Origin: Comamonadaceae bacterium
Lineage (GTDB): Bacteria > Pseudomonadota > Gammaproteobacteria > Burkholderiales > Burkholderiaceae_C
Direction of reading: 5' to 3'
Assembly: GCA_027488115.1 (NCBI GenBank)
Contig: JAIYCG010000023.1
Location: 62,001-126,000, forward strand
DNA: 64,000 nucleotides
Shown here: positions 34,314 to 58,407 of the stretch, piece by piece
How the letters are laid out: each line of letters begins with the position of its first letter
Numbering within the stretch: position 1 is the stretch's first letter
The notes under the pieces: generated by a model
What the model was told of the DNA's origin: nothing
Database searches by the model: none
The model's input: only the letters and a program-made list of their open reading frames with translations
Made by a program: the position numbers and the translations under genes

Positions 34314-35369
34314 TTACTGGTTCATGATCGTGATACTGATCCGCCTGTTTCGAGGATCCTTGGGATCGTTGGGGTTGTAAGGCGCCGTATCGGCAACGCC
34401 TTCAATCTTGGCAAATCGATTGCCTGGAATGCCCTTCTTTTCAATGATCTTGCGAGTTTCCTCGGCACGCTCTGCGGACAAGGACCAGTTGTTGCGATCA
34501 TCGGTATTGGCAAACTGAACGCTGTCGGTGTGGCCCCGAATGGCCACTTTGTTGGGCAATGCCGACAGTGTTTTGGACACCTCTGTGAGCAAGGCCTGGG
34601 CTCTGGGCGTCATGTTGGTTGTACCCAAGCCAAACATGGCGAAGTCGGCTTTGTCGATGATCTCTATGCGCAAGCCATCTTTGTCACGGGCAAATGAAAC
34701 TTGATCCTTGAGTTTGTCCAGCTTCGGGTTCTTCGCCATGGCCTCTTTGATCTCTTTTTCCATCTTGTCAAAGTTGGCAGCGTCTGCGGCCGCAGCTGCA
34801 GCTGCCGCTGCGGCTGCAGACTTTTTGCCTGGATCGCCATCCTGCCCAGACTCTTTGCTGTCTGAGCCATTGGGGGAAGGATCGTTTTCTGTGGGGCCGC
34901 CTTGAGAACGCGGGGTGACCATGTTCAAGGTACTGGTTTGCTTGGCCGAGAAAGGAAAACCATCAGGATCAAGGACAGACCGTCCGCCAAACATACCGTC
35001 CGAGCCAGCCAATTTGCCCATGGTCACATTGCTGTGCGAGGTGGGTTTGAAATAGTCGGCAATGCTTTTGCGTTGGTCTGCATTGGAAGCACCCAACAGC
35101 CACATCAACAAAAAGAAAGCCATCATGGCCGTCATCATGTCGGCCAGGGCAATTTTCCAAGCACCACCGTGAGCACCGCCATGCCCATCGTCCATGATTT
35201 TCTTGATGGTGATGCTAGGCGCAACCACCACCGGCGCATCTACTTCGGCCTCTTCAGGAACGAGTGGGGCAGCATCGGCAGCCGCTTCTGCGGCATCCTC
35301 AACAACCGGGGCTTCAGCTGCTTGCGCCTTAGCCTCGTCTGTCAGCGCTTCTAAAACTGCCTCAGCCAT
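34314..35369 (-). CDS. motB: Flagellar motor stator protein MotB
   Basis: The 351-residue protein has a cytoplasmic Ala/Glu-rich leader (about 65 residues) and one membrane helix containing the proton-accepting aspartate (KIALADMMTAMMAFFLLMWLL, residue about 82). A plug and linker with a poly-alanine run follow. The C-terminal OmpA-like peptidoglycan-binding domain is IRGHTDSVQFANTDDRNNWSLS. MotB anchors the stator to the cell wall and, with MotA, conducts protons. The N-terminal leader is longer than the roughly 30 residues in E. coli. It starts 5 bases after motA. Confidence 0.94.
   Translation of the reverse strand: MAEAVLEALTDEAKAQAAEAPVVEDAAEAAADAAPLVPEEAEVDAPVVVAPSITIKKIMDDGHGGAHGGAWKIALADMMTAMMAFFLLMWLLGASNADQRKSIADYFKPTSHSNVTMGKLAGSDGMFGGRSVLDPDGFPFSAKQTSTLNMVTPRSQGGPTENDPSPNGSDSKESGQDGDPGKKSAAAAAAAAAAADAANFDKMEKEIKEAMAKNPKLDKLKDQVSFARDKDGLRIEIIDKADFAMFGLGTTNMTPRAQALLTEVSKTLSALPNKVAIRGHTDSVQFANTDDRNNWSLSAERAEETRKIIEKKGIPGNRFAKIEGVADTAPYNPNDPKDPRNRRISITIMNQ
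34784..34819 (-). repeat. Poly-alanine codon run in the MotB linker
   Basis: About eleven consecutive alanine codons (mixed GCA/GCT/GCC/GCG) lie in the linker between membrane helix and OmpA-like domain. Codon mixing argues for selection on the amino acid run instead of simple slippage. Confidence 0.6.
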
Positions 35370-35374
35370 GGCGA

Positions 35375-36238
35375 TTAGCCTCCACGCAAGCCATCAAACA
35401 CTTCAGCAAAACTAGGCTGATTGTGGTGGCTAATTCCGGCCCGCGCGGCCTCAATGATCAGAGGCATGGGGTGACCGTGCAAGGTCCCGATGATGATTTG
35501 TTTCACCACTTTGTAAATTTGGCCTTCATCGTCAATGATTTGAGCCAAGCGGGAGGCCATGGGCTCAATGAAACCGTAGGCCATGAACACGCCCAAGAAC
35601 GTACCCACCAAAGCGCCACCAATCATGGCACCCAACACCGCAGGCGGTTGGTCAATCGCGTCCATGGTTTTCACCACACCCAGCACACAAGCCACAATAC
35701 CCAATGCAGGCAGCGCACCCGCTAGGGTGGCCAAAGCAGCTTGTGCTTTCAAGGCGTCATGGTGGTGAGTTTTGATAGACAAGTCCATCACGTCTTCCAC
35801 GGCGTAGGGACTTAAAGGGCTGGTGGACACCACCATCAATCGAACCGTGTTGCAAACCAAATCTAACAAGGCGTGATCGTGCAAAATTTTGGGGTACTCG
35901 CCAAAGATGGCGCTGGATTCCGGATTCTCAATGTGCGCTTCAAGGGCCACAGGGCCCTCGGTTTTAAGCGTTTTCATAATTTTGGACACCACGAAGATGG
36001 TGCTCAAATAATCTTCTTTTTTGTAGGCAGGGCCCTTAAACACTTTGCCCATGCCGCCCAGGGCACCTTTGAAAATGTCCATGCTGTTGCCGATCAGCAT
36101 ACCGCCAATACCAGCGCCCAAAATAATGAAAGTCTCAATCGGCGCTGATTTGATAATCGGCTTCATGCTTCCGCCGGCCATGATAAAACCGCCGAACACG
36201 CAGACCATTAAAACAACGATACCAATAATCGCATTCAT
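35375..36238 (-). CDS. motA: Flagellar motor stator protein MotA
   Basis: The 287-residue protein has four predicted membrane helices, starting MNAIIGIVVLMVCVFGGF. The conserved proline of the channel is in GALPALGIVACVLGVVKTM, followed by MIGGALVGTFLGVFMAYGF. Length and sequence fit the long proton-type MotA of enteric and beta-proteobacteria. The ATG at 36238 has GGAGAG upstream; the in-frame TTG at 36250 was rejected. A strong hairpin sits just ahead of the ribosome site, between fliS and motA. Confidence 0.94.
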   Translation of the reverse strand: MNAIIGIVVLMVCVFGGFIMAGGSMKPIIKSAPIETFIILGAGIGGMLIGNSMDIFKGALGGMGKVFKGPAYKKEDYLSTIFVVSKIMKTLKTEGPVALEAHIENPESSAIFGEYPKILHDHALLDLVCNTVRLMVVSTSPLSPYAVEDVMDLSIKTHHHDALKAQAALATLAGALPALGIVACVLGVVKTMDAIDQPPAVLGAMIGGALVGTFLGVFMAYGFIEPMASRLAQIIDDEGQIYKVVKQIIIGTLHGHPMPLIIEAARAGISHHNQPSFAEVFDGLRGG

Positions 36239-36260
36239 ATTTCTCTCCAAAAACGAACAA

Positions 36261-47886: not shown

Positions 47887-49035
47887 ATGGCTGAAAATTC
47901 CGGCGCAGAACAAACCGAAGAGCCGACGGCGCGCAAGCTGCGCAACGCCCGAGATGAAGGCCAGGTTGCCCGATCGACAGAGCTACCTGCCGCCGCGGTC
48001 ACCATCGGCGCCATCTTGGCCATGTTCATGATGGGCGGCTTTTGGATGAAGAACATGGCTGAAATTTTTGCTTCGGGCTTCAAGTTCGATCGCAAGACGA
48101 TCGACAACCCCGACCTGATGGTGACCACATTTGCCCATCAATTGGGCGAAAGTTTTTTGCTGATTGTGCCCATCTTGTTGGTCACCGTCATCTTGGCTGT
48201 TTTGTCCAGTGGTGCAACCGGTGGTTACTTGTTCTCGTTAAAAGGCATCATGCCCAAGTTCAGCAAACTCAGCGTGTTTTCTGGCTTCAAGCGCATGTTT
48301 GGTGCGCACGCCGCGATTGAGTTGCTCAAAGCCATTTTGAAATTCACTTTGGTTGCCACCGTGCTGTGGTCTCTTGTCACTCGCCAAATGGACCAAATGA
48401 TGCAGTTGGGCCAAATGGCCTTGGAGCCGGCACTGGCCGCAGCGGGTTGGATGATTGGTGAATCCGCTTTGTGGTTGTCTGTCAGTCTATTGGTCATTGC
48501 TCTGATCGATGCGCCCTACCAGCGCTACGCGTTCATCAAGCAAATGCGCATGACCAAGCAAGAGGTTAAAGATGAAATGAAGGACATGGAAGGCCGTCCT
48601 GAAGTCAAGCAGCAAATTCGCCGGCGCCAGCGTGAAATGGCCAACAACCGGATGATTCAAAAAGTCAAAGATGCTGATGTCATCATTACCAATCCAGAAC
48701 ACTTTGCGGTTGCTTTGTCATACGATCCCACAGGCGATGGCGCCCCTGTCCTGTTGGCCAAAGGCTCTGACCACATGGCCGCACGAATTCGCGAAGAAGC
48801 CCAAAAACACGGCGTTGAAATCTTTGGTGCTCCGCCCTTGGCGCGTGCCCTTTATTTCAGCACCGAAGTCGATCATCCTGTGCCAGAGGCGCTTTATTTG
48901 GCAGTGGCGCAGGTGATTGCTTACGTCTTCAGCCTTGCAGATGTTCGGCCAGGTGTTGCCCCTATGCCTAAACCTCAACCCAAAGTGCCTGCATCCATGT
49001 TGTTTGATGCCAACGGCAAATTAATGTCATCCTAA
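47887..49035 (+). CDS. flhB: Flagellar export switch protein FlhB, with NPEH in place of NPTH
   Basis: The 382-residue protein has the N-terminal AEQTEEPTARKLRNARDEGQ, four membrane helices and a cytoplasmic domain beginning QEVKDEMKDMEGRPEVKQQI. The autocleavage site reads Asn269-Pro270-Glu271-His272 (bases 48691-48702) followed by FAVALSYDPTGDGAP. Standard FlhB has NPTH. Asn and Pro, between which the bond breaks, are kept. FlhB sets the substrate switch with FliK. The gene ends the fli operon, with two unrecognised genes after it on the same strand. Confidence 0.95.
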   Translation: MAENSGAEQTEEPTARKLRNARDEGQVARSTELPAAAVTIGAILAMFMMGGFWMKNMAEIFASGFKFDRKTIDNPDLMVTTFAHQLGESFLLIVPILLVTVILAVLSSGATGGYLFSLKGIMPKFSKLSVFSGFKRMFGAHAAIELLKAILKFTLVATVLWSLVTRQMDQMMQLGQMALEPALAAAGWMIGESALWLSVSLLVIALIDAPYQRYAFIKQMRMTKQEVKDEMKDMEGRPEVKQQIRRRQREMANNRMIQKVKDADVIITNPEHFAVALSYDPTGDGAPVLLAKGSDHMAARIREEAQKHGVEIFGAPPLARALYFSTEVDHPVPEALYLAVAQVIAYVFSLADVRPGVAPMPKPQPKVPASMLFDANGKLMSS

Positions 49036-49049
49036 ATTCAGGAATCTTT

Positions 49050-49637
49050 ATGAGCGATACACCCAATCAAGACGAACCGATGATCATTAAGACGGACAGG
49101 CCGCATTCCGTCTCAATGCCTGAAGGCACCAACATTGCTATTGGCAAAAAGGCAGAAGCCAGTGCACCTGCCATTCGCAAAGTCATGGCCGAAGGCGAGA
49201 ATTTTGTCTCCGAGGTAAACAACGTCATCGATGGTGGGGAAGATCCCGACAAAGCGCCCAAGTCGGAGGTGTTCGCCAAGGGCGACGTTTACAAGGGCAA
49301 TCAAAACGTCGCCGATGTTGAAGAAAACATCAAAGGCTATCAAAGCGCTGCCGATGCCCCAGATCGTTTTGTCAATGTCCCAAAAGACGCACCGATCCCT
49401 CCCCCCCAAAGCAAGCCTCTGAATGTCACCCAGCTCGGGGATGCGCCAGCCATTAAAGACGAGCCAATTGGTGCCGATACTGTAGCGAAGGCAGAGGCAA
49501 TTTTGGCAGCCATTGAAATAGATCAGTCTATTGCTCGTGCCGAACCCATGCCCGAAATGAATTTTCCAGCGCGTGTGATCAAGATCAAAATCGAGAACGA
49601 TTTGGTGCGCGAACGCTTGGACAAGCTTGAAGAATAA
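49050..49637 (+). CDS. Unrecognised acidic protein downstream of flhB
   Basis: This 195-residue soluble protein has no signal peptide or membrane helix and is not recognised. It is Asp/Glu/Pro-rich through most of its length, with several VP/DAP motifs. It ends in a short, well-structured amphipathic segment (FPARVIKIKIENDLVRERLD), the only part that looks conserved-domain-like. The 14-base gap after flhB and 11-base gap before the next gene indicate one transcript with the export-gate genes. It may be a flagellar assembly accessory factor; the sequence does not say more. Confidence 0.7.
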   Translation: MSDTPNQDEPMIIKTDRPHSVSMPEGTNIAIGKKAEASAPAIRKVMAEGENFVSEVNNVIDGGEDPDKAPKSEVFAKGDVYKGNQNVADVEENIKGYQSAADAPDRFVNVPKDAPIPPPQSKPLNVTQLGDAPAIKDEPIGADTVAKAEAILAAIEIDQSIARAEPMPEMNFPARVIKIKIENDLVRERLDKLEE

Positions 49638-49648
49638 AGGAACCTGCA

Positions 49649-50548
49649 ATGAGCACCCAACCCACAACGGGCGTCAACGACAAGTCGCATCAAGCCAGTC
49701 ATGATACGCCTGACGTTCATGCTGCAGAGCCCGTGGCATCCGATGTGGACGAGCTTCAAGGCATCAAAATGGTGGCGCTGGAGTCGGCCGAGCTGGCCAC
49801 TCGATCCGCCAATGTGGCTGCAGGTGTGGCCGAGAACATGAAAAAGGCCACCCTGAGCCTGCACGACCTGATGAAGGTCAACAAAAAGCAACACCTGATC
49901 ATGATGGGCATTGCCGGTGGCTTTATGTTCATCACTGGCATCATGTTTGCCACATCCATCTTTACCTTAAAGTCCCGAATCAATCAGATGGACACCATGC
50001 TGGTTGCACTCAGCAAGCGCGTGGTTGAACTTGACGAATCCATGGAAATGGTGGGATCGGTCAATGAAGGCCTGCAAGCCATGGTGGCCAAACAAGACGA
50101 CATCACCAAAATGCAAGGCGCTTTGGAATCAAGGCTGAACGAGGCCATCAAACAAACCGAAAGCGTGCCCGGCAAAACTGCGCAACAAGTGGGCGAAAAA
50201 GGTGAGGCCTTGGCAGCTCAAGTCAAGTCACTCGAAGGCCGCTTTCAGCAGCAATCTCGTGCTTTGAATGCACTGGCCAATCAAGTGGGTGGCCTTCAAG
50301 GGGCAGTCGGAGAAACAGGCGGCTTCAAGAAAGAAATGGAAACACTTGCGCGTTTGCAAAAAGAACGTCAAGCGTCTGACAATGCTGTCGCTGCCAAGGC
50401 TGCAGCACAAGCTACTGCCGCAGCCAACGCAGCCAACGCAGCAGCCGTTAATGCTATCAAGCAACGTGAAAAAATGGTTCAGTATCCACGTGCACAACAA
50501 GACACTGCACCAGCAGGTGCCAGTGGCGTGTTGAACAGCAAACCTTAA
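49649..50548 (+). CDS. Unrecognised single-pass membrane coiled-coil protein downstream of flhB
   Basis: The 299-residue protein has a roughly 80-residue N-terminal part with the helical segment MVALESAELATRSANVAAG. One membrane helix follows (about residues 82-106, HLIMMGIAGGFMFITGIMFA), then a long predicted coiled coil (about 108-235), an Ala/Asn-rich stretch and a disordered tail. RBS AAAGGAACC precedes the ATG. It is the last gene of the fli-flhB transcript and converges on the sigma-54 activator gene with a 48-base gap. Possible roles are polar scaffold, stator or ring accessory; no family was recognised. Confidence 0.7.
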   Translation: MSTQPTTGVNDKSHQASHDTPDVHAAEPVASDVDELQGIKMVALESAELATRSANVAAGVAENMKKATLSLHDLMKVNKKQHLIMMGIAGGFMFITGIMFATSIFTLKSRINQMDTMLVALSKRVVELDESMEMVGSVNEGLQAMVAKQDDITKMQGALESRLNEAIKQTESVPGKTAQQVGEKGEALAAQVKSLEGRFQQQSRALNALANQVGGLQGAVGETGGFKKEMETLARLQKERQASDNAVAAKAAAQATAAANAANAAAVNAIKQREKMVQYPRAQQDTAPAGASGVLNSKP

Positions 50549-50596: not shown

Positions 50597-51775
50597 TTAT
50601 TCACCTTCCGAACTGGCCACGGGCAATGTGCCCTGACGCAGGTCGTACTTGTTCAATTTTTCAATGAGCGTGGTGCGCTGTAAGTTAAGCAGTCTGGCAG
50701 TTTGAGACACATTGCCATCGGTACGCGCCAAGGCCTGCACAATCAAATCACGCTCGATGTCGGCCAAACGGTCTTTCAAAGACAAGCCTTCTGGCGGCAA
50801 ACTTGGCAAACCTTGAGCCAACATGATGATGTCTTCTACTTCATTGTGCATGTTCATGACCAAGGGTGGCGCAGGGTTGGCGAACGGATTCATGACATCG
50901 GCGTTGGCACTTTGATGTGAGTCCTTTTGACTCAAGGGCGCCACAATTTCCAAATCGTCAACAATGGGCGTGCTGACACGCTCAGCCTGCAGTACACGCA
51001 AACCCCTGGGGAGCAAGGAGGACGGCACGGTGGCCAAGCTCAACAACTGACCGCTGAACAAGGTGTTAAAGCGATCGACCAAATTGGACAACTCGCGAAC
51101 ATTGCCAGGCCAAGCATAGTCCTTCAAAGCCTCTACGAAGTCTGCAGCAAACGTGATGGGCGGCTGCCCTTTGGCTGCAAAGTGCAACGCAAAATGCGTT
51201 AACAAAGCTGGCACATCTTGCGCCCTTTGGCGCAAAGCGGGCGTGTTCAGCGGCAACACATTCAATCGGTAATACAAGTCTTCGCGAAACCTTCCCGCTT
51301 CAATTTCAGCCTCTAAATCTCTGTGCGTCGCAGCCACCACACGCACATCAACCGCCACAGATTTCAGTGCCCCCACAGGATCTACGGTGCGCTCCTGCAA
51401 AACGCGCAGCAGTTTGACTTGCATGTCGAGCGACAAATCGCCAATTTCATCCAAGAAAATGGTTCCGCCATGGGCCAGTTCAAAGCGCCCAATTCGATCG
51501 GCCATGGCGCCTGTGAATGCACCCTTTCGGTGGCCAAACAATTCGCTTTCCAAAAGGTCTTTGGGAATGGCAGCGCAATTGATGGGGACAAAGTTGCCAC
51601 CACTGCGATCTGATTGGTCGTGCAAAGCACGTGCAACCAACTCTTTGCCCGTGCCACTTTCCCCCGTAATGAGCACGGTGGCCGTCGAGGAGGCTACCCG
51701 TTCAATTAAATGACGAATTGCTTCAGCGCTGGCACTTGCACCAATGAAAGCTTTTGAAGGAGATTTTTGCGCCAT
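50597..51775 (-). CDS. Sigma-54 enhancer-binding activator without receiver domain (FleQ/FlaK-like)
   Basis: The 392-residue protein starts directly with an AAA+ domain: Walker [10 protein letters not shown], the sigma-54 contact loop [11 protein letters not shown], Walker [13 protein letters not shown] and the arginine-finger region [15 protein letters not shown] spacer follows (about 255-330, rich in Pro/Asn) and then a Fis-type helix-turn-helix ([21 protein letters not shown]). No N-terminal response-regulator or FleQ domain is present. Position inside the flagellar block suggests it is the flagellar master activator. The ATG at 51775 was chosen over an upstream TTG; a perfect palindrome lies 75 bases upstream. 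Confidence 0.9.
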
Positions 51776-51949: not shown

Positions 51950-51976
51950 TCAAGCTTCTCAAGTTAATGCCGAATC
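51950..51976 (+). promoter_or_regulatory. Sigma-28 (FliA) promoter for the flgP cluster
   Basis: TCAAGCTT and GCCGAATC are separated by exactly 11 bases, close to the FliA consensus and to the elements before flgM and fliS. The element ends 43 bases before the flgP start codon. Confidence 0.6.
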
Positions 51977-52019: not shown

Positions 52020-52496
52020 ATGAAACGCACTGCTGCATCTGTTTTGGTTTTAAGCATGGTGGCCCTGACGGGTTGCAAATCTATCAATTTGGCCATGCCC
52101 AATGCGTCGAAGGATGCGTCTCCTTTGGCGCAGCCCATTATTGAAAAACGCGAAACCATCACGGCCACTGGCTATGCGGTTGTAGCCGTGCAAAACCACA
52201 AGAACCCTGCGCAACAACGACTCATGGCCATCCGTGCTTCCAAGCTGGACGCGTACCGCAACCTCACAGAACAAGTTTACGGTCAGCAACTGGATGCAAG
52301 CTCTACGGTTGCCGACATGGTCGTCACCAATGACACCTTCCGCGCCAAAGTAGAAGGCGTTATTTACGGCGCACGCTTGGTCAGCATTACACCTGTTGGT
52401 GAGGACACCTACGAAACCACCTTGTCTTTGGACCGAGATGTAGTGCAAGACCTGCGCATTTTGTACATGGGCCAAATGGCCGCCAGAGGTCGTTGA
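52020..52496 (+). CDS. flgP: LPP20/FlgP-type outer-membrane lipoprotein
   Basis: The 158-residue lipoprotein has a short signal sequence ending in the lipobox VALTGCKS (Cys about residue 19). A compact domain follows (TATGYAVVAVQNHKNPAQQRLMAIRASKLDAY, split over residues 50-85), typical of the LPP20/FlgP family. In Vibrio and Campylobacter, FlgP forms or supports outer-membrane-associated rings/disks around the flagellum. The ATG at 52020 was chosen over a TTG six bases upstream. It overlaps nothing; the next gene begins 2 bases after its stop. Confidence 0.85.
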   Translation: MKRTAASVLVLSMVALTGCKSINLAMPNASKDASPLAQPIIEKRETITATGYAVVAVQNHKNPAQQRLMAIRASKLDAYRNLTEQVYGQQLDASSTVADMVVTNDTFRAKVEGVIYGARLVSITPVGEDTYETTLSLDRDVVQDLRILYMGQMAARGR

Positions 52497-52498
52497 TC

Positions 52499-53809
52499 AT
52501 GGCAAACCGCACGACACAATCCTTTGTCACTGGCTTGGCCATTTTGGTTTGTGCCGTTGCTACAAACGCTCAAGCAGAACTCACTGCCCAGGAACGCCTA
52601 GATGCCATTCGCCAAAGCCTGGTTGAAGCATCTCTGCAAACTCCAACGCGAGTTCAGACCACAGCGTGGTTTGACAAGCAAGGTAGCCTTCGCGAAAACA
52701 GCAGTTTTAAAAATGCCTTAGACGTGAAGGGCGTTCGGGTCACTGGTTACGACCGCGACGAGTTAGGCCAACCCAAAGCAAAGCTGCAATTTCCAGTTGC
52801 AACGGCCGAGGCATCGATGTCGAAATTCGCCAATGGCCCTTTGGACAAGTTTGGTCAAGCCATTGACAAATTTTCAAAGTTTGCAAAGAAGTGGGCACCT
52901 CCTGGTGTCCTTGGTCAGGAAGACGAGCCCATCTGCAAAGTCAAAGTGAGTGGCAAACTCATGCACACGATGAGTTTGGATTTGCAAACTGAAGAGTCTA
53001 CAAACACAACTTTCCTCTCTGCATTTTTGCCAATGGTTCAGTCGAATTGGGTGGGGAATGCCAAGACAACGGGTGGTTGGCGCATGGTCAACTCATTGCC
53101 AGCACCTTCTATGTCCAACAACATGACAACCTACGAACGTGCCCTCATTGGCAACCGGTCCGACAATTTGCCTTGGACGGCCAAACTCATGGTCAGTACC
53201 GAAAAAGTAGAATCTTCTGGTGTTGTCCTCACACGAGCCGAAAAAACCTCGGCGCTGCAAGTTCAATTGCGCTTGCAAGTCAATGGTGCAGAGGGCCAAC
53301 TTGAGGCTTACAAAGACCAGACCAGCTTTGTCATTGAACTGGAGACGCCGGCTTGGTCATCGCCAAGGTTAAGCCCCAACAGCTTGTTGTTATTGCAAAA
53401 TGAAGTCGAGGTCATGCGCAACCAAGCTGAAGAATGGCTGAGTTGCCAAGCAGTCAATCCCGCTGTGACTGCCGTTGCATCAAGGCAAATCGAGATCAAT
53501 GCGGGTGCATTGGCTGGGGTCAAAAAAGGCGATGAGTGGTTGGTTGCCAATCCTGCACGATTTCCCGCCGAGTTGATGGGCAAAGAGGGTGCGCCTCAAA
53601 CTTTGTTGGCACAAGTTCAGTCAGTGACGCCCTTCAAATCACAATTGGTGGTGTTGGCAGGTCCCGTTCAAGCTGTACAAGCTAACTGGCGCGCTTGGCC
53701 CACCGAGACTTTGATCAAAGAGCCGCAGGTTCAAGCATCTACAACGACCCTTTCCAAGAGATCCAACAAATCCACGTACAGCCCAGCGGTTGTCCTGTCG
53801 CCCTACTGA
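52499..53809 (+). CDS. Secreted FlgT-like flagellar ring protein (tentative)
   Basis: The 436-residue protein has a signal peptide (cleavage near NAQA-EL) and no membrane helix after it. The C-terminal part contains a barrel-like segment, INAGALAGVKKGDEWLVANP and QVQSVTPFKSQLVVL, which resembles the C-terminal domain of FlgT, a Vibrio H-ring protein. FlgT commonly neighbours FlgO/FlgP, and here flgP is directly upstream. N-terminal similarity was not recognised, so the assignment rests on context and the C-terminal part. Confidence 0.6.
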   Translation: MANRTTQSFVTGLAILVCAVATNAQAELTAQERLDAIRQSLVEASLQTPTRVQTTAWFDKQGSLRENSSFKNALDVKGVRVTGYDRDELGQPKAKLQFPVATAEASMSKFANGPLDKFGQAIDKFSKFAKKWAPPGVLGQEDEPICKVKVSGKLMHTMSLDLQTEESTNTTFLSAFLPMVQSNWVGNAKTTGGWRMVNSLPAPSMSNNMTTYERALIGNRSDNLPWTAKLMVSTEKVESSGVVLTRAEKTSALQVQLRLQVNGAEGQLEAYKDQTSFVIELETPAWSSPRLSPNSLLLLQNEVEVMRNQAEEWLSCQAVNPAVTAVASRQIEINAGALAGVKKGDEWLVANPARFPAELMGKEGAPQTLLAQVQSVTPFKSQLVVLAGPVQAVQANWRAWPTETLIKEPQVQASTTTLSKRSNKSTYSPAVVLSPY

Positions 53810-53825
53810 TTCAAACGAGCTTGCC

Positions 53826-54233
53826 ATGAAGTCTTTCTCTTTCAAATACTTTGCAGTCACTGTTGTTGTGGCCATGTCTGGCTATTCATTTGCATCGGAT
53901 GAACCGGCAACAGCAGCTACAACGGAAGTCACAAAGACCTCTTACAAAACAACGGAAAGCATTGCCATTGACCGATTGGTTCAAAAAATATACGCCAACA
54001 GCCCGTTGAACACGGCCATCCTTCGCAAAGCTTTGGTCGAAGCAAACCCCAAGGTAATCACTGGCAACCCTCAGCAACGCGTCAAATCGGGCACAGTCAT
54101 TGTGGTTCCGGACCATGCCGAAATCGTTCGCGTCACCTTGTCGCCCTTAGAAGCGGTCGCGCCAAAAGCCCAAGACAACAACCCAGGTGCCCGAGACTAC
54201 CCAGCTCGCAAGCAGTGGGTTAGATACCCTTGA
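53826..54233 (+). CDS. Secreted FimV-like/LysM-like small protein
   Basis: The 135-residue protein has a signal peptide (SFASDEP) and a segment LRKALVEANPKVITGNPQQR with KSGTVIVVPDHAEIV. This matches the FimV/HubP N-terminal LysM-like pattern in which the second line ends in IP/VP. Such domains bind septal or polar peptidoglycan. The start at 53826 gives the signal peptide; upstream codons are inside the previous gene. It overlaps the next gene by four bases (TTGA). Confidence 0.5.
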   Translation: MKSFSFKYFAVTVVVAMSGYSFASDEPATAATTEVTKTSYKTTESIAIDRLVQKIYANSPLNTAILRKALVEANPKVITGNPQQRVKSGTVIVVPDHAEIVRVTLSPLEAVAPKAQDNNPGARDYPARKQWVRYP

Positions 54234-55270
54234 TCTCTGGGGCCGAGGCGCTTGCGCCACAAGGCCGCCCCCCTCCTATTTATCTGGAAGGCAAACTGCT
54301 GTCTTTCCAGCCCAACAGCGCAGCCGATTTAGGTCTCAAAGATGGCGAGGTTGTGCAAGCCTCCGTCAAACTGCATCACGACCAACCCATGTTGGTATTG
54401 CAAGGTAAAACCCTGCCATCACCTGGTTTGCAAATGTCACAGGTGGGCGAATCTATATGGCTCAAAGCGCAAGGTGGCACGCTGGTTCCCATCCAAGCAC
54501 AGCCTCTGATTTCACGCATCGCCAGCTTGCTTTATCGGCCCAGTGCTGGCTCTGAATTACCGCAATTGTTTCAACCTGGCACCTTGGATGCCTTGCTCAA
54601 CACCGTTCAGCGACCTGACCTTCTAGCGCAATGGCGCTCTTTGCAATTGTCAATGAACCAACTGACGCCAGCGGCTTTGAAGCAAGCCATGATGGGTGCG
54701 ATGGGCGCAGAAGTGTGGCTGGCCAGAGGCAAGCAGGCACCAGCGCTCGACCCCAAACAATTGCTGCGCAAACTGATTGCTGAATTGGATGTGAGTGACA
54801 ACGAAGCGCTAGGCGAGTCGGGACTTGTTGAAAAACTGACCAAAGCGGTTGACGACATCGAGGCCCGTCAAGTTCAGGCCGTGCAAGCACAAGCACAACA
54901 AGAAATTTTGTTCAGCATGACCTTGCCTTTTGTGGATGCCAACCCGATCGAAATGTCCATCAGAAGGGGGCCGAGGCAAGATGGCGAGCAACCCATTTTG
55001 ACCGTCAACATTCATTCCAAAAGTGACGAGCTGGGTCCTATCTGGCTCAAAACTCAATTGATGAATTCACAGCAAATTGAGCTCACCATGTGGGCTGAAA
55101 AAGAAAGCGTAGTGGCTCAGGCCAGATCACGCGCCTATCTGTTGGGGGATGAACTTAGCGCAGCAGGCCTCAACATGCGTTCGTTCAATGTAGTCCAAGG
55201 CGTCAGGCCCACAGAGCCTAGCAATTGGACCCCCTCGGGCAGAGGCCTTGTCGTGGACGTTTCCGCATGA
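54230..55270 (+). CDS. Second FliK-like protein with C-terminal Flg_hook domain
   Basis: The 346-residue protein begins with TTG overlapping the previous stop. Its C-terminal 100 residues have a FliK-like hook-length domain (GPIWLKTQLMNSQQIELTM, then LLGDELSAAGLNMRSFNVVQG). The N-terminal half has a segment with LSFQPNSAADLGLKDGEVVQ. It is paired with a stand-alone FlhB C-terminal domain protein, a combination that recurs in many bacteria (FliK-like plus FhlB). These are thought to modulate the export switch, but the mechanism is not settled. Confidence 0.75.
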   Translation: MISGAEALAPQGRPPPIYLEGKLLSFQPNSAADLGLKDGEVVQASVKLHHDQPMLVLQGKTLPSPGLQMSQVGESIWLKAQGGTLVPIQAQPLISRIASLLYRPSAGSELPQLFQPGTLDALLNTVQRPDLLAQWRSLQLSMNQLTPAALKQAMMGAMGAEVWLARGKQAPALDPKQLLRKLIAELDVSDNEALGESGLVEKLTKAVDDIEARQVQAVQAQAQQEILFSMTLPFVDANPIEMSIRRGPRQDGEQPILTVNIHSKSDELGPIWLKTQLMNSQQIELTMWAEKESVVAQARSRAYLLGDELSAAGLNMRSFNVVQGVRPTEPSNWTPSGRGLVVDVSA

Positions 55271-55572
55271 GCCGATACATGCGTCAAGCTGTGGCTTTGG
55301 CTTACGGCAACAACCCAACACCTGTGGTCACCGCCAAAGGAGACGGTGAGCTTGCACAGCGCATGCTGGAGGAGGCGCGCAAAGAAGGCATTTTCATTTC
55401 AGAAGATCCTCAGTTGCTGGCGCTGCTTAGCCGCTTGGATGTTGACGAAGAAATTCCGCAAGAGCTCTACACCGCGGTTGCCGTTGTCTTGTCATGGGTT
55501 TATTGGCTTAGAGGCATGCGCCCCGGCGATGAAAAAGCTGAGCCTCTCGTTGAGCCAGCGCCTGAAGCATGA
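55267..55572 (+). CDS. Stand-alone FlhB C-terminal-domain protein (FhlB-like)
   Basis: The 101-residue protein aligns with FlhB from just before the cleavage loop to the end of its cytoplasmic domain: ALAYGNNPTPVVTAKGDGEL, RMLEEARKEGIFISEDPQLL and IPQELYTAVAVVLSWVYWLR. The NPTH loop is missing (NNPTP instead). It overlaps the FliK-like gene by four bases and converges on flgN. The full FlhB is encoded about 6 kb upstream, so this is a separate paralogue domain. Confidence 0.85.
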   Translation: MSRYMRQAVALAYGNNPTPVVTAKGDGELAQRMLEEARKEGIFISEDPQLLALLSRLDVDEEIPQELYTAVAVVLSWVYWLRGMRPGDEKAEPLVEPAPEA

Positions 55573-55573
55573 G

Positions 55574-55954
55574 TCAAACTTCTTGGTAACCTCGGCCACG
55601 ACCAAAGCGAGCCACTTGTCCCAAGCGGTCATAAACTTCGACGGAGCTGCCAGAGTCGCCCACTCGGAGGCTGTTCAAGGTGCCTCGGATGGTGTCCAGT
55701 TTTCTTTCAATCAAGATGGCATTGCGCCTGTGAAGGTCACGGCATTCAACCAGCTTGTCGCGCAAGGGCTCCCATTCGGGCAGATCTTGCAAGTCTTGTG
55801 CAGGGGGGCATTTTTGGCTCAACTCTTGGAGCAACTCATTTTTGCCAGGCTGCAGGGTCTCAAACCGGTCCAGATCTTGGCTTTTAAGAGCTTCAAACTC
55901 CAAAGCCAACAGCTGGACCAGCTGATCACTCAATGTTAGAAGGCGCTCACTCAC
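55574..55954 (-). CDS. flgN: Flagellar export chaperone FlgN
   Basis: The 126-residue all-helical protein has the FlgN pattern LLALEFEALKSQDLDRFETL and RRNAILIERKLDTIRGTLNS, ending in YDRLGQVARFGRGRG. FlgN escorts the hook-associated proteins FlgK and FlgL. It starts with GTG, overlapping flgM by eight bases; flgA-flgM-flgN run in that order on the minus strand, the standard arrangement. Confidence 0.88.
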   Translation of the reverse strand: MSERLLTLSDQLVQLLALEFEALKSQDLDRFETLQPGKNELLQELSQKCPPAQDLQDLPEWEPLRDKLVECRDLHRRNAILIERKLDTIRGTLNSLRVGDSGSSVEVYDRLGQVARFGRGRGYQEV

Positions 55955-56267
55955 GGATCATTTGTTCAATTGCATGAAAGCTTTCGGCAATCTTGCGGGG
56001 GTTCAGAGGGTATTGACCGTTTTGAATGGCTTCTTTGATGGAGTCAACTTTGGCGCGGTCAAAGTCGGGTTCGGCCAAGACCCGTGCGGCCACATTGGAC
56101 AATTGCACTTGATCACCTGCTGCTGGTTTTGTGGAAGGTGCAGAGGCAGGCGCATCGTTCAACGCTTTGGCCAAGGCACCTGACTTACGGTCGGTCTTGT
56201 CCAGAGCACTGCGCAGCGAAGCGTCCGACTGTGCACGTCGTCCGTAATTTGAAATTGCATCGGTCAT
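55947..56267 (-). CDS. flgM: Anti-sigma-28 factor FlgM
   Basis: The 106-residue protein has the disordered N-terminal half and the FlgM C-terminal sigma-binding helices, VQLSNVAARVLAEPDFDRAKV and VDSIKEAIQNGQYPLNPRKIA. FlgM holds FliA inactive until the hook is finished and is then exported. The ATG at 56267 was chosen; a GTG at 56294 is in frame. A sigma-28 promoter is upstream, giving FliA-dependent expression of its own inhibitor, as in Salmonella. Confidence 0.92.
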   Translation of the reverse strand: MTDAISNYGRRAQSDASLRSALDKTDRKSGALAKALNDAPASAPSTKPAAGDQVQLSNVAARVLAEPDFDRAKVDSIKEAIQNGQYPLNPRKIAESFHAIEQMIRE

Positions 56268-56329
56268 AGCTAGCTCACTTTCTGATCTCTTCACACTTCA
56301 ACCCACATATAGAGAGTTGGACGTGCTTT

Positions 56330-56356
56330 ATATCGACAGTACATTCTAGAACTTGA
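56330..56356 (-). promoter_or_regulatory. Sigma-28 (FliA) promoter for flgM
   Basis: On the minus strand TCAAGTTC and GTCGATAT are separated by exactly 11 bases, near the FliA consensus. It lies 63 bases before the flgM start, in the flgA-flgM gap. Confidence 0.72.
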
Positions 56357-56413
56357 ATCACTTTTTTGAAATTTAGAGGAATTAATTGAAAAAAAGTAGC
56401 TTTATGTGACATT

Positions 56414-57211
56414 TCAAAGACCTTTGGCCGTATTGGGGCCTGTCACCACACCCGAAACCTGCCTGCCAGACTCTGGGTTTTTCAATTTCACTTGGTCGCC
56501 CATACGACCATCTTGCATGGCTTCCATTCGCACTGTGATCTGAAAATCTGCGCTATTGCCCACCGACATCATCACCATTTGGCCTTGCTTGACCATCACA
56601 GCTCGACGAATGTCAGAAATCCGCAGCGCTTGGCCGGCCGCGATGTCGCGGGTCAATTCGGCTTGCTGGGCGTCTTTCAGCTTACTCAGTATTTGTGTAT
56701 CGGCATTTCCAGGGGAAGCTTGAACTTCTTCCAGCATGTCGGCTTGCAAGATTGTTCCTCGTTGCAGCAAACGCCGAGCAATCACCATGGTTTTGGCTGT
56801 TTGCCCAAGGTTGGCGCCCACAGCCCCAGGGTTAGGGTTGGCAGCTGTCAAATTGTTCAAGGGCAAACTGACTTGCAAATAAAGCTGCCAAACTGGCTCT
56901 GGACACCTGACCCTCACAGTCTCTTTGGAGGCAAAGGGGTGGTCGACCACCAAGGGTTTTTGACAAGCTTGAATTTTCAAACGTTCATCCAATGGTGCAA
57001 TAGTGATTTCTTTAGAATTCACTCCGTGAGTTTGTGATAACCATTGAACTACTTGTGAGCGCATAGACTCTGCCGGCGTCAGCGTTTGAGCATCTGCATT
57101 CATTGGGTGAATGATGGTCAACAGCCAAAAAACCGTCAGGCACAAGATTTGCATCAAGACTTGGGCAGGTGTAGAGGATTTGACACTTGTTTTGAACATA
57201 ACAGAGCTCAT
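56414..57211 (-). CDS. flgA: Flagellar P-ring chaperone FlgA
   Basis: The 265-residue periplasmic protein has a signal peptide (ILCLTVFWLLTIIHPMNADA) and a SAF-type domain with VIARRLLQRGTILQADMLEE and ALRISDIRRAVMVKQGQMV. FlgA helps assemble the FlgI P-ring. The N-terminus could also begin at an internal ATG at 57199. The start codon is only 20 bases from the start of a divergent LysM-lysozyme-like gene, an unusually short divergent gap for two promoters. Confidence 0.92.
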   Translation of the reverse strand: MSSVMFKTSVKSSTPAQVLMQILCLTVFWLLTIIHPMNADAQTLTPAESMRSQVVQWLSQTHGVNSKEITIAPLDERLKIQACQKPLVVDHPFASKETVRVRCPEPVWQLYLQVSLPLNNLTAANPNPGAVGANLGQTAKTMVIARRLLQRGTILQADMLEEVQASPGNADTQILSKLKDAQQAELTRDIAAGQALRISDIRRAVMVKQGQMVMMSVGNSADFQITVRMEAMQDGRMGDQVKLKNPESGRQVSGVVTGPNTAKGL

Positions 57212-57231: not shown

Positions 57232-58407
57232 ATGAGAATTGAGTCTAAATTACCGAATGCGCCTGTAGGCAATTCAGGCAATGCGCCCAACAACGTGGTG
57301 GCACTGTCACGCCCCGGCTTTGGCCAGGCCATGTCGCAAGTTCAGCAAAGCCCGCAGACAAGAACCATTCAAGCTGGCGACACCCTCACAGGCATTGTTC
57401 GAGAACAAGCCCAAATTCACGGCATCAAACTGTCGCCTTCAGAAGAGTTTAGGTGGACACAAACCTTGGCCGCTGACAGTGGCATTCAAAATGCCAACGC
57501 CATTTTTCCGGGTCAAAAAGTTCAAATGCAAAACATGTTGAGCCGTTGGCAAGCCGGCCAAACTCAAGCGGTCAATCACGCTCAAAGCACCCCCTCCCCC
57601 AATTTCAACGCAGTGGGCAAACAGAGCGACCCTATTCCAACAGTTATCGTGACGGCGGCCCGAGCCGAATTACCCAAGTCCAATTACATCAACGCTGTGA
57701 CGCATCCGGTGTTGAGTCAAACCTTAGACAGAGCCGTTGCGCGAGGCTTCATCCCGCAAGTAGAGCAACAGGACGTTTACAACAAGGTGATACAGGTCGC
57801 GAACAAACACAATTTCTCACCTGATGACTTTGCCCGCTTAACCCTGATGGAAAGCGATGGCATGAACCCGCAGGCCACCAATACGCGTTGCCACGGGATC
57901 ATTCAATTTTGTGATGGCCCCGACCGAGGTGCCGCCGAAGTAGGATTTGGAAAATCACCTAAATCTATTTTGGGCTTGAGTGTTTACCAACAATTGCACT
58001 TGGTCGACACCTACTTTGACAAGGTCGGCTTGAAAAAAGCAGGTGCGGTGCCATTGGATGAACTTTATTTGGCCGTGTTGCAGCCAACGGCTCGAGTCGA
58101 GAAGCGACCCGAAGAGCCGCTGGGTATTCCAGGCAAACAGGCCAAGTACTTGTACGAAGGCCGTGACCCACAAGCGCCCATGACACGCACATCGATCACC
58201 CAAGGTTTGGTCCAAAATGCGGCCGACCGACTGGGTTTGAAAAACATCAAATCGCAAAATTCAGGCAACGCCGTCAGCAATGCCATTAACAACGCACTGA
58301 ATCCCAACACAGATCCCAATGCCTCCTCGGCTGCGCGTATTCGACTGCAAGTCCAAAAAGCAGCCGATTACGACGCCATCGAAGGCCCCAAAGTTTGGTT
58401 GCGATAA
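57232..58407 (+). CDS. LysM-like plus lytic-transglycosylase-like peptidoglycan hydrolase
   Basis: The 391-residue protein has an early LysM-like segment (RTIQAGDTLTGIVREQA and IFPGQKVQMQNML). A helical domain (about 155-290) with a candidate catalytic glutamate in LTLMESDGMNPQATN and HGIIQFCDGP recalls lysozyme/transglycosylase folds. No signal peptide is apparent, so it may leave through the flagellar exporter as FlgJ does, a reading favoured by its place between flgA and flgB. A terminator follows. The function needed would be peptidoglycan clearing for the rod. Confidence 0.65.
   Translation: MRIESKLPNAPVGNSGNAPNNVVALSRPGFGQAMSQVQQSPQTRTIQAGDTLTGIVREQAQIHGIKLSPSEEFRWTQTLAADSGIQNANAIFPGQKVQMQNMLSRWQAGQTQAVNHAQSTPSPNFNAVGKQSDPIPTVIVTAARAELPKSNYINAVTHPVLSQTLDRAVARGFIPQVEQQDVYNKVIQVANKHNFSPDDFARLTLMESDGMNPQATNTRCHGIIQFCDGPDRGAAEVGFGKSPKSILGLSVYQQLHLVDTYFDKVGLKKAGAVPLDELYLAVLQPTARVEKRPEEPLGIPGKQAKYLYEGRDPQAPMTRTSITQGLVQNAADRLGLKNIKSQNSGNAVSNAINNALNPNTDPNASSAARIRLQVQKAADYDAIEGPKVWLR

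Follow-up and report, generated by a model that had tools for sequence, protein, structure and literature searches.

The flagellar systems closest to the locus described here are the H-ring (FlgO, FlgP, and FlgT) and T-ring (MotX and MotY) of Vibrio and Shewanella, the basal disk of Campylobacter (FlgP, FlgQ, and PflA/PflB), and the ring or disk of Hylemonella gracilis. The locus is a five-gene operon encoding the lipoprotein FlgP, an apparently diverged FlgT, a small secreted protein termed FimVs, a second FliK-like protein (FliK2), and a free FlhB C-terminal domain (FhlB). It lies in a 64,000-nucleotide stretch, referred to as the window, from a Comamonadaceae bacterium (assembly GCA_027488115.1, contig JAIYCG010000023.1, positions 62,001 to 126,000). 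It is likely to encode, under sigma-28 control, a structure of the H-ring type located where the basal body meets the outer membrane, together with a second export-switch pair. The source genome is a 2.95-Mb draft in 49 contigs with a completeness of 96.1%, and the nearest named relatives, ranked by FlgP, are titled Limnohabitans, which suggests a genus close to Limnohabitans.

In Vibrio, FlgP and FlgT surround the L-ring, and among gammaproteobacteria the FlgO/P/T H-ring has been tied to sodium stators (PMC6375700); the words betaproteobacteria, Burkholderia, Bordetella, and Hylemonella are absent from the main text of that account. H-rings are listed for gammaproteobacteria and one alphaproteobacterium in PMC13023049, and the fold of FlgP and FlgT has been described (PMC12222027). 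H. gracilis, which like the source organism belongs to the Comamonadaceae, has bipolar tufts (PMC7643111) and a ring ascribed to ‘unknown proteins’ (PMC5758724, PMC6096493), and is named without ring proteins in the relevant passages of PMC11870540 and PMC9380563. No earlier report of the five-gene operon was found within the limited set of papers and terms searched.

The locus shares with the Vibrio and Shewanella systems the presence of FlgP and FlgT in a flagellar cluster, but differs in that neither FlgO nor MotY_N was detected in the source draft genome, the stator is of the MotA1 type rather than a PomA/PomB sodium stator, FlgT is strongly diverged, and an extra FimV/LysM-like protein and FliK2/FhlB are found in the operon. 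In a genome that does contain FlgO (locus L227), FlgO, flgA, FlgP, and FlgT are grouped. A FlgP-family lipoprotein is also shared with the Campylobacter basal disk; here it occurs with FlgT.

Organization of the Operon

The promoter element and the five genes are arranged as follows.

51950..51973, plus strand: sigma-28-type promoter element TCAAG-N14-GCCGA, an exact match here, upstream of flgP
52020..52496, plus strand: FlgP, LPP20-family lipoprotein with lipobox (LPP20 E = 2.3e-8; profile match to solved FlgP)
52499..53809, plus strand: probable diverged FlgT, secreted (family profile, profile-profile comparison, Foldseek)
53826..54233, plus strand: FimVs, small secreted protein with a FimV-core/LysM-like domain, proposed peptidoglycan anchor (FimV_core in 23/26 homologues)
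54230..55270, plus strand: FliK2, second FliK-like protein with a C-terminal Flg_hook domain (E = 7.8e-7)
55267..55572, plus strand: FhlB, free FlhB C-terminal domain that lacks the membrane part and the cleavage motif (Bac_export_2 E = 5.1e-17)

An original prediction, made from the letters of the window, had placed five closely packed genes at 52020..55572, which proved essentially correct. It had also stated that several of them overlap, a slightly generous wording: the FimVs/FliK2 and FliK2/FhlB junctions overlap by 4 bases each, whereas FlgP and the FlgT-like gene are separated by 2 bases and the FlgT-like and FimV-like genes by 16. The start codon of FliK2 is TTG. Of 313 named relatives ranked by FlgP, the best 80 were compared for this arrangement, with gene content scored by six-frame profile search; all five genes occur in order at 65 of these loci and the end of the contig is reached first at the other 15. 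At the 65 complete loci the four junctions place the next gene no more than 30 bases from the previous stop in 47, 56, 56, and 62 cases, respectively, by a lenient measure that takes the possible start codon nearest to that stop.

The promoter element ends 46 bases ahead of the FlgP start and was named from what we take to be the sigma-28 consensus. With at most one mismatch, such an element is found upstream of flgP at 60 of 77 named loci, in agreement with the sigma-28 element that had been predicted ahead of the operon, compared with 9.2% of control windows (random 250-base windows from the same loci; 3 of the 80 loci were dropped, their upstream sequence being too short). The spacer is 14 bases in 59 of the 60 element-bearing loci and its letters vary. 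A pattern scan for sigma-70 promoters and terminators was uninformative, giving 3 promoter-like and 7 terminator-like sites compared with 2.6 and 6.1 in shuffled sequences. What the sequence shows directly is the set of five genes with their family matches and order, and the conservation of the promoter element.

FlgP and the Diverged FlgT

The identity of FlgP is secure on homology: in addition to the LPP20 match the protein has a lipobox-like LTGC, and a profile of 19 FlgP homologues matches the FlgP of structure 8z5n (E = 3.4e-18) and, more weakly, 9hmf (‘Lipoprotein, putative’; E = 6.2e-9). These results strongly bear out the FlgP-type lipoprotein originally proposed. Structure 8z5n, presumably of Vibrio origin, is titled as the LPHT ring. 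The alignment to it shows no gap from the helix through the second strand (residue assignment ours), a region that holds the insert accompanying ring formation (PMC12222027).

The evidence supports the view that the product of 52499..53809 is a diverged FlgT. Among 26 homologues, FlgT_C is matched in 12 at E ≤ 1 (best 3.5e-5), and two cysteines are kept in 25 and 26 of them. The family profile finds the FlgT structure 3w1e in the PDB (E = 7e-4), covering the C-domain only, while profile-profile comparison with canonical FlgT of the same order gives E = 3.9e-10 and a probability of 96.7 over 340 columns at 15% identity. A structure model of the protein (mean predicted local distance difference test score, pLDDT, 73.5; predicted template modeling score, pTM, 0.65) has as its best two Foldseek matches the FlgT of the LPHT ring (2.4e-14) and FlgT 3w1e (3.6e-14), the next match being at 4.7e-5. 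Profile and fold agree with the FlgT-like secreted protein of the prediction, with homology along the whole length and modest template modeling (TM) scores. The prediction had held that a lack of structural similarity to ring proteins would count against it; because the two best Foldseek matches of the model are FlgT, the FlgT part of the proposal is not refuted. A protein unrelated to FlgT was rejected as a candidate on the profile-profile match and the top Foldseek rank. Since the FlgT family profile matched only 4 of 274 genomes of the class, that of the window included, it is too narrow a query to reach distant FlgT.

FimVs, FliK2, and FhlB

FimVs, at 135 residues, is unlike the long, multi-domain polar landmark FimV/HubP. 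The FimV_core matches in its homologues were scored at E ≤ 1 (best 5.9e-6), and the window protein itself scores 18.9 bits (cut-off 43.45), so that the FimV/LysM-like assignment of the prediction stands as a weak but recurrent match. In the structure model about 60-70 residues, between roughly positions 38 and 110, form a confidently predicted core. The recurrent domain match suggests that FimVs may be a peptidoglycan anchor.

The Flg_hook match of FliK2 (29.3 bits) is 0.5 below the cut-off of 29.8, and among four orthologues scanned two score above it (L131, 30.1; L048, 32.9) and two just below (L007 and L009, 29.4 each). The FliK-like protein that had been proposed is supported by this domain, at the level of the cut-off. 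FhlB matches Bac_export_2 at profile positions 262-335 only; its alignment corresponds to the last part of FlhB with the cleavage motif missing, and the FlhB-domain protein of the prediction can be specified as a free C-terminal domain lacking the membrane domain. It also matches TIGR00789 (7e-21; 74.2 bits, cut-off 117.35), a family that matches FlhB itself and is found in 176 of 321 genomes of the class, in none of them above the cut-off, and above it in 2 of 14 control genomes. Pairs of a FliK-like protein and FhlB include YlqG/YlqH of Bacillus and are represented in Helicobacter by FlhX. The pair described here shares with these a small free FlhB C-terminal domain beside a FliK-like protein, but differs in following a sigma-28-type element and in being preceded by ring genes. 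FlhB proper is encoded in the window at 47887-49035, ending about 3 kb upstream of the operon, and has NPEH at the autocleavage site, as do all 43 fetched loci that gave a match to the motif pattern; elsewhere in the class the motif was found in 18 of 19 stretches, as NPTH in 13, NPDH in 2, NPSH in 2, and NPNH in 1.

Conservation and Distribution

A single-sequence query with the FlgT-like protein detected it in the source genome, in 29 of 35 same-genus genomes, and in 0 of 24 genomes of other families. At these 30 same-genus loci FlgT is always followed by the FimV-like gene, and at 29 of them it is preceded by FlgP, the remaining locus beginning inside FlgT. FlgP of the operon type is rare in the family (7/200 genomes and 5/141 genera, the genus of the window included). 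Outside that genus, the full operon is present in 4 of five family genomes, representing three genera, and in the other, from a fourth genus, is cut by the contig end after FlgT. In Hylemonella sp. UBA6679, which has the full operon, identities are 74% for FlgP, 40% for FlgT, 39% for FimVs, 51% for FliK2, and 77% for FhlB. One genome each of two other families (L047 and L048) also carries the full operon. In a FlgP tree of 33 rows the five-gene type forms one clade (100/100), and the tree, which has long branches and 7 of 30 forks starred, offers no more than a hint that genomes f13 and f18 branch from within the rest. A one-genome oddity is ruled out by the 65 of 80 relatives and the several genera with the full operon; the arrangement, which the original prediction did not recognize, is shared and conserved across a group of genomes. 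Records titled Singulisphaera (L104) and Akkermansia muciniphila (L145) carry the flagellar locus of the operon, and these titles look wrong.

A simpler arrangement, FlgP directly followed by canonical FlgT, was found in 11 further genomes of the order (L049-L059) among 150 sampled, and the pair is hence not so limited to Vibrio and Campylobacter as had been assumed. The FlgP-adjacent proteins match FlgT_N in 11, FlgT_M in 11, and FlgT_C in 10 cases, and these matches are the independent basis of the assignment, the FlgT5 profile having been built from the same 11 loci so that its matches there are circular. These loci share the FlgP-FlgT succession with the operon but differ in their canonical FlgT domains, in having no detected FimVs, and in that L059 alone has a FliK-like/FhlB pair close by; the 16-17 kb fetched contained no further labeled relative of the flagellar genes of the window.

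Motor Context and Neighboring Genes

The window contains one pair of stator genes.

34314..36250, minus strand: motB and motA; no other stator genes were found (MotA1 327.1 bits; one MotB_plug match in the genome)

The MotA1 score is above the cut-off of 303.8. FlgO was not found in the source draft genome, the family being matched in 11 of 143 genomes searched, six of them at E ≤ 1e-14, and MotY_N was not found there either, with matches in 23 of 94 genomes searched; a FlgO or MotY that is present but missed was rejected, provisionally for a draft genome, on these class-wide searches, which do match other genomes. FlhC was likewise not found in the source draft genome. The presence of flhF and flhG makes a polar flagellum probable. 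In two relatives, PomA-like and PomB-like stator genes lie beside the ring operon (L048:12638-14815 and L238:12519-14697). Their PomA-like protein has PomA as its best family (259 and 296 bits, below the cut-off of 341), and its partner is above the cut-off of PRK08944 (‘MotB family’) and is PomB-like in our reading of its sequence. In L234 MotA1 is matched above the cut-off, and the stators of L047 and L235 resemble MotA/MotB of the window. The operon thus occurs next to two types of stator.

The operon is flanked by the following genes.

50597..51775, minus strand: divergent sigma-54 activator with AAA and Fis-type domains, no receiver domain matched; a conserved neighbor
55574..57211, minus strand: flgN-flgM-flgA (family matches), convergent with fhlB

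Of 76 loci counted, 68 have the sigma-54 activator as the neighbor upstream of flgP. A minus-strand sigma-28-type element with one mismatch and a 14-base spacer lies within 250 bases upstream of flgM (56294). Two uncharacterized genes after flhB (49050-50548; 195 and 299 amino acids) recur beside the operon and match no Pfam family above the cut-off. A LysM protein at 57232-58407 adjoins flgA, has weak transglycosylase-like matches, and recurs in relatives.

Proposed Function of the Operon

The data are best read as an H-ring-type structure that lacks FlgO and MotY, includes a LysM-like partner, and is accompanied by FliK2 and FhlB under shared regulation; the ring role would follow from homology, and effects on torque and export are proposed as well. 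The operon would be expressed after hook completion and FlgM export. The FlgP lipoprotein would form a disk below the outer membrane, around the L-ring, which secreted FlgT would connect to the P/L-rings. FimVs may bind peptidoglycan through its LysM-like domain and brace the ring, structurally replacing the undetected FlgO and/or MotY. Such a ring could steady the flagellum and help to seat the MotA/MotB stators. FliK2 and FhlB, for their part, would imitate the FliK/FlhB C-domain pair that sets export specificity. Genes under sigma-28 control are normally switched on after the first hook-to-filament switch, and for this reason a post-switch role is the most likely one for the pair, which could maintain or adjust the late-export state or act on flagella that the cell assembles afterwards.

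Several observations weigh against this interpretation. Taken alone, the FlgT-like protein of the window scores 16.5 bits with FlgT_C (cut-off 27; E = 0.012), while FlgT_N is matched in 1 of 26 homologues (E = 0.14) and FlgT_M in 0 of 26 at E ≤ 1. The Foldseek TM-scores of 0.39-0.49, with root-mean-square deviations of 10-19, indicate that the domain orientation of FlgT is not matched. For FimVs nothing significant was found by sequence search of the PDB (best E = 0.12) or, at E ≤ 0.001, by fold search (best E = 0.4), and the resemblance to ring proteins that the original prediction had put forward for checking was not seen. Absences from the source genome are provisional, given its draft state. 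UBA6679 is Hylemonella by record title alone, and the H. gracilis ring has been placed proximal to the inner membrane (PMC5758724), unlike the L-ring site in Vibrio. Because it rests on a genus-titled genome and the imaged ring is inner-membrane-proximal, the proposal that the operon encodes the ring of the imaged Hylemonella motor is a lead and not a demonstration.

The strongest competing explanation, with odds a little short of even, is that FliK2 and FhlB are simply late flagellar genes that share the transcript and are unconnected with the ring. FhlB does occur without FlgP/FlgT: in 20 regions chosen among the TIGR00789 matches of the class, a FliK-like neighbor was found in 9 and FlgP/FlgT in 1 (L198), and among the 11 distant FlgP-FlgT loci a nearby FliK-like/FhlB pair is seen only at L059. 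The linkage to the ring genes is, however, unbroken in the 65 relatives and in several genera, and a FliK-like/FhlB pair lies within a few kb of flgP-flgT both in L059 and in L198, which belongs to another order.

That the same ring serves another job, in assembly, outer-membrane passage, or anchoring rather than stator recruitment or torque, is possible, although we give it distinctly lower odds. Among the Vibrio H-ring mutants covered in PMC7693769, flgT mutants of V. alginolyticus have periplasmic flagella, and in the genome of the window just one MotA/MotB pair and no match to MotY_N were found; on the other side, V. fischeri without FlgP assembles no stators (PMC7693769) and H. gracilis has a static ring of 13 likely stators (PMC5758724). 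A bolder extension of the H-ring reading, which we regard as rather unlikely, is that FlgP, FlgT, and FimVs build the Hylemonella-type ring, with FimVs as a peptidoglycan-bound stand-in for FlgO/MotX/MotY that would permit stators of either the MotA/MotB or the PomA/PomB type, and with FliK2/FhlB coupling ring completion to a post-switch export gate. Finally, the weak single-sequence Pfam score of the FlgT-like protein and the lack of a significant fold match for FimVs could suggest ordinary envelope proteins unrelated to rings, but homologue domains, the PDB profile match, the profile-profile match, and Foldseek agree on FlgT, and both proteins hold a constant place between flgP and fliK2, which makes this explanation highly improbable.

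Under the H-ring-type reading, the operon names testable candidates for the ‘unknown proteins’ of the Hylemonella gracilis ring. It also shows that the putative ring genes have been retained next to a MotA1-type stator and, in two relatives, next to stators resembling PomA/PomB. Should the reading hold, gene deletion and tomography could test what a betaproteobacterial ring is made of and whether ring and stator are linked as proposed.

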